Shown here piece after piece: positions 39,868 through 64,000 of a stretch of 64,000 nucleotides of DNA (position 1 is its first letter; the number at the start of each line of letters is the position of its first letter). Below the pieces are notes generated by a model. The model was not told the DNA's origin. It did not search any database and saw only the letters and a program-made list of their open reading frames with translations. A program made the position numbers and the translations under genes. Source of the DNA: Anadara kagoshimensis. Its lineage: Eukaryota > Mollusca > Bivalvia > Arcoida > Arcidae. The stretch is from assembly GCA_021292105.1 (NCBI GenBank), contig CM037867.1, positions 10,358,728 to 10,422,727 on the forward strand. The letters are read 5' to 3'.

Positions 39868-62399
<22,532 letters not shown>

Positions 62400-62651: not shown

Positions 62652-63605
62652 TTCTCGCCCAATGATGTTATTCAGATATACAGAGACGTGCAAAAAGTAT
62701 TCGGTCACTTTGTAAAAATCCTTATAACATTTAAGAAAACATCAGGTGACCAGCATGGTAAATTTTTAACTGCGATATGTAGTATATTCAATTTAAAAAA
62801 ACCTGTTGAATTTAAAATGTTTATCAATGAGACACGTAAAATGACGGATGTATTAAACGGTAACAGATTTGTCTATATTAAACCCCTTGCAGATAATGTT
62901 GCATTACCCCGGGTAACATATTGTGCTGGTTTAAGATGTCGATTGTATCATCATGGGCAACCTTCACATAGCCGTAAACTAGTTTGCAATAACTGTTTTG
63001 AGGAAGGTCATCACTTTTCAAACTGTGAAAACGAAGCTGTTTGCAAAGTTTGCAAAATCCCAGGTCATAAACCCGGTACCAAAGACTGCCCTGATTACGT
63101 GGACAAAAGTAAAGTTGAAATATTCCATGGACAAGAAAATGTATTGTCCAACTTCTATCCATGTGAGTTAAAGCTCTTTGGTCAAACATTTGCTTCTGCA
63201 GAACAGTGTTTTCAGTATGTTAAAGCTGAAAGATCCGGCGATCCCATAAGTGCACAGAAAATTATGGAATCCAAAACACCACTTGAGGCTAAAAAACTTG
63301 GAAATTTTGTTTCTGCTTCTACCCAGTGGGTGGATACAAGGGTCGACGTCATCCAATCAATTGTTGATGCGAAAGTTAAACAGGTAAAAGAGTTTCGGGA
63401 CAAACTGTTATCTATAAAGAAAGGTGTAACATTTGTTGAAAGTACATATGATGATTTCTGGGCGTCAGGTCTCAGTGAGTCAGGAACCAAACATACCAAA
63501 CCTGCATCATGGCCAGGTATGAATATGTTTGGTAAAGTCCTCACTAAGACAGCCGATAAACTAAAGAGGCCAGTCTCTGTATCGGTGACGGGCAAATCCA
63601 AGTAA
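62652..63605 (+). CDS. LINE ORF1: two CCHC zinc knuckles fused to a NADAR (ADP-ribose hydrolase) domain
   Basis: The frame is open from just after a stop at 62649-62651 to TAA at 63603-63605 and has no in-frame ATG near its start. Counting from the GTG at 62688 (305 residues): a region resembling the RNA-binding part of LINE ORF1 proteins (1-95); zinc knuckles CNNCFEEGHHFSNC at 100-113 and CKVCKIPGHKPGTKDC at 119-134; then a NADAR domain (142-293). By recall of E. coli YbiA, SNF, the glutamate of SAEQCFQ (E172), W214, the VEST-x4-W stretch (W258) and the GMNMFG loop correspond to conserved NADAR positions. NADAR proteins remove ADP-ribose, including from guanine bases in DarT-DarG type systems. 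ORF2 follows 78 bases later. The role is inferred: RNA binding plus possible reversal of host ADP-ribosylation. The missing ATG suggests a 5' truncated copy. Confidence 0.85.
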   Translation, partial: FSPNDVIQIYRDVQKVFGHFVKILITFKKTSGDQHGKFLTAICSIFNLKKPVEFKMFINETRKMTDVLNGNRFVYIKPLADNVALPRVTYCAGLRCRLYHHGQPSHSRKLVCNNCFEEGHHFSNCENEAVCKVCKIPGHKPGTKDCPDYVDKSKVEIFHGQENVLSNFYPCELKLFGQTFASAEQCFQYVKAERSGDPISAQKIMESKTPLEAKKLGNFVSASTQWVDTRVDVIQSIVDAKVKQVKEFRDKLLSIKKGVTFVESTYDDFWASGLSESGTKHTKPASWPGMNMFGKVLTKTADKLKRPVSVSVTGKSK

Positions 63606-63683: not shown

Positions 63684-64000
63684 ATGAGTAAACTTAAATT
63701 ACTGTCCCTTAATGTCAGGGGACTAAATGACTATAACAAGAGGGTCAAGATTTTTGATTGGTTTTGTAATTCAGATGTTGATATCTTTTTCTTACAAGAG
63801 ACTCATTTTGTGGAGTCTAAGGCATTTGTATATAACTCTCGTTGGGCTGGAGAACTCATTCATAATTTTTCTGACTCTATACACAGCAGAGGAGTATCTA
63901 TTTTGTTCAGAAAAGGTCTTAATGTAACCGTGTTAAACAGTAACAAATCAGATGACGGACGTCGTCTTCTAGTTAACATCAAAGTTAATGATGAAACCCT
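63684..64000 (+). CDS. LINE ORF2, N-terminal endonuclease (runs off the right edge)
   Basis: Starts MSKLKLLSLNVRGLNDYNKR and continues with IFFLQETH and HSRGVSILFRKG. These are the Asn and Glu metal/catalytic motifs of the apurinic-type endonuclease that opens ORF2 of L1/Tx1-group LINEs. The frame is open to the window edge (105 codons). Reverse transcriptase is expected beyond it. It shares the strand with ORF1 and is probably translated from the same bicistronic RNA. Confidence 0.88.
   Translation, partial: MSKLKLLSLNVRGLNDYNKRVKIFDWFCNSDVDIFFLQETHFVESKAFVYNSRWAGELIHNFSDSIHSRGVSILFRKGLNVTVLNSNKSDDGRRLLVNIKVNDET

Follow-up and report, generated by a model that had tools for sequence, protein, structure and literature searches.

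A NADAR domain within a LINE ORF1 frame

We analysed a 64,000-nucleotide stretch of the bivalve Anadara kagoshimensis (positions 10358728-10422727 of contig CM037867.1, within a 1.115-Gb assembly of 36 contigs), called the window below. Near its end, a 317-amino-acid (aa) open frame on the plus strand (62652-63605) joins a region of the kind found in the first open reading frame (ORF1) of long interspersed nuclear elements (LINEs) to a NADAR domain. A sequence-only reading of the window had described this joining, and profile searches agree with it. The Pfam NADAR model (PF08719) matches residues 161-304 of the frame at 87.3 bits (E 1.8e-24), well above its cut-off of 35.1, and the NCBIfam model ribofla_fusion scores 79.6 bits (cut-off 73.7). 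Sequence matches in the PDB include 8bau, a Phytophthora NADAR (E 2e-10), and E. coli YbiA (E 0.002).

Two further features of that reading, a pair of CCHC zinc knuckles and a downstream L1-type endonuclease ORF, are also present. The knuckles are legible directly (C53-C56-H61-C66 and C72-C75-H80-C87, in the numbering of the 258-aa LINE part), and the cysteines and histidine of both are invariant columns among 22 homologs; the Pfam zinc-knuckle model scores 15.5 on the frame, under its cut-off of 27. ORF2 starts with an ATG at 63684, 78 bases past the ORF1 stop codon, and its 108-aa frame inside the window matches Exo_endo_phos (E 1.4e-5). Coordinates are collected in Table 1. Labels beginning with L denote genomic stretches fetched from the same genome and those beginning with P denote homologous proteins from public sets.

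Table 1 Features of the NADAR-bearing frame and its surroundings (window coordinates)
Feature	Position	Strand	Basis
Target DNA, not LINE, 5' part of frame; mariner-like inverted repeat at 62685-62717	62652..62827	+	34-nt repeat flanking LINE
LINE ORF1 remnant, 258 aa + stop	62829..63605	+	51% identity to residues 131-382 of ORF1 homolog P0001
CCHC zinc knuckle 1, CX2CX4HX4C	62985..63026	+	Direct reading; invariant in 22 homologs
CCHC zinc knuckle 2, CX2CX4HX6C	63042..63089	+	Direct reading; invariant in 22 homologs
NADAR domain	63132..63563	+	
Predicted catalytic Glu, position of E43 of P. nicotianae NADAR	63201..63203	+	Alignment; role from passages of PMC11543638
Predicted catalytic Lys, position of K50	63222..63224	+	Alignment; role from passages of PMC11543638
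Last-strand Glu, YbiA-type residue	63438..63440	+	Alignment; subfamily marker per passages of PMC11125620
ORF2 start, APE-type (apurinic/apyrimidinic) endonuclease, runs past window end	63684..64000	+	Exo_endo_phos; L009 frames

Active site and subtype of the NADAR domain

A glutamate (E43) and a lysine (K50) are key residues of the P. nicotianae NADAR (PMC11543638), and the residue on the last strand separates a YbiA type (Glu), a BC4488 type (Asp) and a phage gp30.3 type (His) (PMC11125620). Alignment places E184, K191 and E263 of the window frame (317-aa numbering) at these three positions. The counts that follow cover 59 homologs plus the window protein and ignore gaps. The first glutamate is kept in 53/56 sequences (Asp in P0040, Ser in P0055, Lys in P0058), the lysine in 52/56 (Arg in P0013, P0053, P0057 and P0058) and the last-strand glutamate in 47/50 (Ser in P0042, Arg in P0044, Lys in P0058). 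Three of the exceptions are too long to count as short fragments: P0013 (395 aa), P0040 (426 aa) and P0057 (360 aa). The three columns are kept across the homologs despite a mean column identity of 50%. The structure model of one homolog has the YbiA/NADAR fold with the E, K and E residues. E263 marks the window frame as a member of the YbiA subfamily. Six other NADARs of the genome that we aligned (L029-L034, see below) keep the first glutamate and the lysine, and all six have histidine instead of the last glutamate; because of this histidine they are not of the YbiA subtype by that mark.

For YbiA and plant NADARs, an N-glycosidase activity on small molecules has been proposed, with riboflavin intermediates or NAD-derived metabolites as substrates, and the domain could have this housekeeping role too. 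The NCBIfam match, which is named riboflavin biosynthesis intermediates N-glycosidase and lies just over its cut-off, speaks for such a metabolic role, whereas fusion to RNA-binding modules in an element protein offers no metabolic reason and riboflavin synthesis is not known from animals. We regard this role as very unlikely.

A broken insertion of a recurring LINE family

Nine other fetched stretches (two of which, L016 and L017, overlap) begin to match at window position 62828, and this is where the LINE starts. The assignment of the frame to LINE ORF1 holds from there on and fails for codons 1-59, which are target DNA; for these reasons the window copy lacks the N-terminal part of ORF1. 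Missing are the first RNA recognition motif (RRM) and most of the second. We also read L009, a fetched stretch that covers the window copy and beyond (L009 1056 is window 62828), and here ORF2 is split over several frames. The window copy is thus a truncated, broken remnant of a NADAR-bearing LINE. Its 3' region (L009 6260-7650) is rich in ATTT and ATT tandem repeats, which align between copies in several registers.

An inverted repeat of 34 nt, 94% complementary and mariner-like by eye, flanks the LINE on both sides (L009 912-945 and 7821-7854). L013, located 2.9 Mb off on the same contig, matches the window locus over 8.4 kb at 98.7%, flanks included, and is a duplication of this locus rather than a second insertion. 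Target-site preference is known for some Tx1 lineages. We rejected target-specific insertion into mariner: of 20 oriented loci, the repeat is found around two, the window copy and its segmental duplicate.

Other copies supply more of the element. L010 has a nearly whole ORF1, interrupted by a stop, and in L014 ORF2 is open over 1267 aa and matches Exo_endo_phos (1.5e-14) and RVT_1 (3.9e-34); zf-RVT scores 16.9, under its cut-off of 27.5. This ORF2 aligns to human L1 ORF2p across residues 5-888 (E about 6e-88). Its APE-type endonuclease and its reverse transcriptase (RT), related to that of L1 ORF2p, place the L014 copy in the L1 superfamily; the nearest RT homologs carry uninformative names, and the comparison included no named Tx1 RT. 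No full-length open ORF1 was found in the copies read among the 20 fetched stretches. Judged from sequence, this is a bivalve L1-superfamily LINE family whose ORF1 is predicted to contain a pair of RRM folds and a pair of CCHC knuckles, with NADAR at its C-terminus.

At least 127 matching stretches were listed in the genome, from 413 candidates; the best belong to the window family, and many, at 30-37% identity, are other NADARs. The ORF1-NADAR fusion recurs in other fetched stretches, and public sets hold 59 homologous proteins, Pinctada and Tegillarca being among the sources. In view of these window-family copies and homologs, a single-locus accident is rejected. One could still picture chance, with a truncated LINE lying beside, or capturing, a single host NADAR gene in a local fusion. 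The truncated and broken state of the window copy would suit this, but the recurrence in other stretches and the homologs in Pinctada and Tegillarca make it extremely improbable.

NADAR domains in other mobile elements of the genome

Six NADAR loci (L029-L034) were read from weaker genome matches; for three of these, L035-L040 add a second copy or sequence further downstream. L030 was assigned to no element type. L029 and L032 share a layout of ORF1, a separate NADAR frame (152 and 174 aa from stop to stop) and then an endonuclease frame. The ORF1 of L029 has a coiled-coil match below cut-off and that of L032 has no Pfam match. Second copies lie on different contigs: L029 and L038 are 97-98% identical over 4 kb, and L032 and L039 99.6% identical over 4.3 kb. 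The NADAR frame is open in both members of each pair; ORF1 of L038 is not open along its whole length. In L034 and L040 (98.1% identity over 4.0 kb), ORF1 matches SGNH/GDSL weakly (below cut-off) and is followed by NADAR and then by an endonuclease-RT frame. After position 4311 of L034, roughly 3 kb belong to a different LINE before the ORF2 of the first one resumes in L037; one LINE seems to have inserted in another here.

At L031 (1555-2460, minus strand), NADAR and a weak SGNH/GDSL-like match share one frame. The SGNH part has nine full-length copies at 98-100% identity, with NADAR directly before it in five. L033 carries NADAR (2.6e-19) and a transposase match (1.4e-7) of Mutator-like elements (MULEs) within one open stretch of 1470 aa. 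RT comparison separates the window family, the L029/L032 group (36-44% to the window family) and L040 (about 29%). Besides the window family, two or more other LINE lineages of this genome are thereby shown to have NADAR, and so are its MULE DNA transposons. As a side observation, weak MULE transposase matches sit 1.0-1.7 kb from four NADARs that have a related SGNH match after them.

P0047, a predicted protein of Tegillarca granosa, joins a C1q domain to a NADAR piece, probably as a gene-model artefact. A minus-strand frame at L029 5073-5456 resembles, by eye, the C1q part of this protein.

Genome-wide association of NADARs with mobile elements

We searched the whole genome with PF08719 and obtained 341 candidates, of which 150 were scored and 191 were not; all 150 lie above cut-off, a few being fragments. 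Elements were sought with three queries: the L029 endonuclease (1672 candidates, 122 scored in 123 rows), the L039 endonuclease (1927 candidates, 113 scored in 114 rows) and the L040 endonuclease-RT (5502 candidates, 73 scored in 75 rows), giving 308 scored of 9101. Within 6 kb downstream, on the strand of the NADAR, these matched at 42, 13 and 7 places, respectively (62 in total, no overlap). For all three queries, no match lay upstream on the same strand or on the opposite strand within 6 kb of the 150 scored NADARs. Chance would give about 0.05 pairs for the L029 query, against the 42 found. The gap between NADAR and endonuclease is 347-1594 nt in 39 of these 42, and the remaining three have gaps of 2.0, 3.0 and 3.4 kb; outliers also occur for L039 (5.4 kb, one of 13) and L040 (4.4 kb, one of 7).

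Nine NADARs have a match to the L033 MULE transposase at most 5 kb away, always on the strand of that match (about 0.07 expected). Exactly 46 nt separates the two matches at four of the nine places, and four of the nine have a weak MULE match (23-25% identity, E 2e-12 to 2e-7) lying 1.0-1.7 kb away. Seven further NADARs belong to the window family, counting the window copy and its duplicate. Element-linked NADARs thus number 78 of the 150 scored, or 72 without the four weak MULE and two distant endonuclease cases; with 308 of 9101 endonuclease/RT candidates scored, the remaining NADARs are not thereby host genes.

Origin and published precedents

A tree of 15 NADAR domains, with one of its 12 inner branches starred, leaves one capture and several captures undivided; one capture moving between elements would fit the shared histidine. 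A protein search with the L029 NADAR gave no match at E 0.001. When the L034 NADAR was compared with prokaryote genome contigs, 14 pattern matches appeared and none was confirmed as a relative.

NADAR in ORF1 of Tx1 LINEs of Crassostrea gigas is already in print, as is NADAR in Pol of Ectocarpus Gypsy elements; the same paper proposes that these NADARs process RNA intermediates (PMC12477816). Because of this report the window family is not new as a kind, and the sequence-only reading, which knew of no described LINE of this type, has to be corrected. For NADAR in mobile elements, PMC12477816 alone surfaced in the literature searched. NADAR as an ORF of its own in a LINE, or in MULE transposons, was not mentioned there; most subscription journals and bioRxiv preprints fell outside the search. 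The main text of a bivalve element survey (PMC10294476) contains neither DUF1768 nor PF08719.

Other features of the window

Three features lie elsewhere in the window. An exon of an MCM replicative helicase gene occupies 47745-48128 on the minus strand (PF00493, E 1.7e-40). On the plus strand, a 193-aa open frame at 56910-57491 repeats itself by eye in units of about 50 codons, with weak Pfam matches below cut-off. A 100-aa plus-strand frame at 60692-60994 resembles, on inspection by eye, the C-terminal end of a LINE RT (WIGHIMRR...GRPKTTW), and no such Pfam match was obtained.

Possible role of the ORF1 NADAR

NADARs hydrolyse ADP-ribose from guanine in DNA (PMC11543638), and they act on guanine ADP-ribose in RNA and not on phosphate-end ADP-ribose (PMC11833690). 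N2-guanine ADP-ribosylating activity has been described in six edible clams, and the enzyme CARP-1 was cloned from Meretrix lamarckii (PMC11209040). We tentatively propose, giving it somewhat less than an even chance, that the ORF1 NADAR removes guanine ADP-ribose marks and so unblocks replication of the element. The RRM and CCHC parts would coat the element RNA, and the NADAR part would travel with the ribonucleoprotein. There it would hydrolyse ADP-ribose from guanines of the element RNA, the cDNA or the target DNA, and this erasure would keep reverse transcription or replication from being blocked. The mark would come from a host guanine ADP-ribosyltransferase (ART), for which clam CARP-1 is a known example.

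Several points weigh against this proposal. Many LINE relatives at 51-53% identity, including some whose ORF2 is open over about 1270 aa, lack a neighbour among the 150 scored NADARs, so NADAR looks like an optional, dispensable part for a LINE. The Scabin-like profile PF22596, which we take to be the writer type of CARP-1, gave no candidate in this genome and none in 14 control genomes either; other ARTs, such as the poly(ADP-ribose) polymerases (PARPs), were not searched. Ratios of nonsynonymous to synonymous change (w) on recent copy pairs rest on too few changes to speak for selection: the NADARs of L029/L038 differ by 2 synonymous and 3 other changes (w 0.36), those of L034/L040 by 2 and 0, and the window differs from L010 by 1 and 3 (w 0.82) and from L019 at w 0.18 with dS saturated at 2.85. 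The NADARs of L032/L039 show 1.5 synonymous and 9.5 other changes, while ORF1 of this pair has none; we suspect that the excess is an end effect of unequal stop-to-stop frames. A MULE has no RNA intermediate and does not fit a role purely in RNA or reverse transcription; the protected molecule may therefore be DNA. Finally, the NADAR authors state that erasure of the CARP-1 mark is not experimentally confirmed (PMC11543638).

Two other explanations were weighed. NADAR may be a passenger that came in with other cassettes (SGNH hydrolase, knuckles): a fold binding RNA or nucleotides, whose retention serves structure or localisation and not catalysis. LINE ORF1 proteins are known for module swapping, NADAR co-occurs with SGNH-type hydrolase matches (below the Pfam cut-off) in the same or neighbouring frames, and related LINEs seem to manage without it. 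The retention of the active-site E, K and E columns at the 50% mean identity given above argues against a passenger, which we consider unlikely. Alternatively, NADAR may serve as a module that binds or hydrolyses ADP-ribose on proteins or in PARP signalling at DNA breaks and helps the element at the endonuclease nick, with no nucleic-acid mark involved. The fold does bind ADP-ribose, as in the 8bau complex, and DNA breaks are one thing common to LINE and MULE integration. However, NADAR acts on ADP-ribose on the guanine base, with no activity on phosphate-end ADP-ribose, and the passages of PMC11833690 report no protein substrate. We judge such a module to be unlikely as well.

Removal of guanine marks, our preferred explanation, has a wider form. 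The occurrence of NADAR across LINE lineages and MULEs fits the counter-defence idea of the sequence-only reading better than a single fusion would. In bivalves, NADAR may be a portable counter-defence cassette used by transposable elements that are unrelated to each other (in this one genome, MULEs and three or more LINE lineages), fused or stand-alone, a possibility that we still hold to be doubtful. If it were true, it would suggest that animals have a hitherto undescribed defence in which guanines in the DNA or RNA of elements are ADP-ribosylated; clam enzymes of the CARP-1 type would be the candidate writers, and many "animal NADAR genes" would be element genes. The role of animal NADARs has been stated to be unclear (PMC11125620), and what the clam guanine ADP-ribosylating enzyme is used for is a second question. 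With about half of the scored NADAR stretches tied to mobile elements, these two questions are joined.

Comparison with known systems

The closest counterparts are the C. gigas Tx1 LINEs, which share with the window LINEs the L1 superfamily, a bivalve host and a YbiA-family NADAR in ORF1 (PMC12477816). The two are very likely the same element family. The C. gigas elements were reported in one sentence from a Repbase match. Domain order, catalytic residues, the other LINE lineages and the MULE elements go beyond the passages on them. The Ectocarpus retroelement also carries a NADAR but differs in being a long terminal repeat element of a brown alga with NADAR in Pol, whose non-Ectocarpus matches are almost exclusively bacterial (PMC12477816).

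Human LINE-1 ORF2p (PDB 8sxt and others) resembles the L014 ORF2 over the aligned residues 5-888. Human L1 ORF1p is not known to carry a NADAR. 8bau, E. coli YbiA and the DarT1-associated NADAR antitoxins (PMC11543638) share the fold and the E/K pair with the window domain, and the last-strand Glu is as in YbiA. They differ in that they are stand-alone proteins or antitoxins and do not lie within the nucleic-acid-binding protein of a mobile element.

Phage NADARs offer a parallel in logic. They have been suggested to shield phage DNA from host ARTs (PMC11125620), and in both cases a genetic parasite would have its own eraser. Among the matches listed, phage NADARs are about 30-35% identical to two of the element NADARs. 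They differ in being phage genes, with no fusion to RNA-binding modules at the three phage places examined. Removal of guanine marks by the LINE NADAR would be an animal parallel to the action of phage NADARs against bacterial ARTs.
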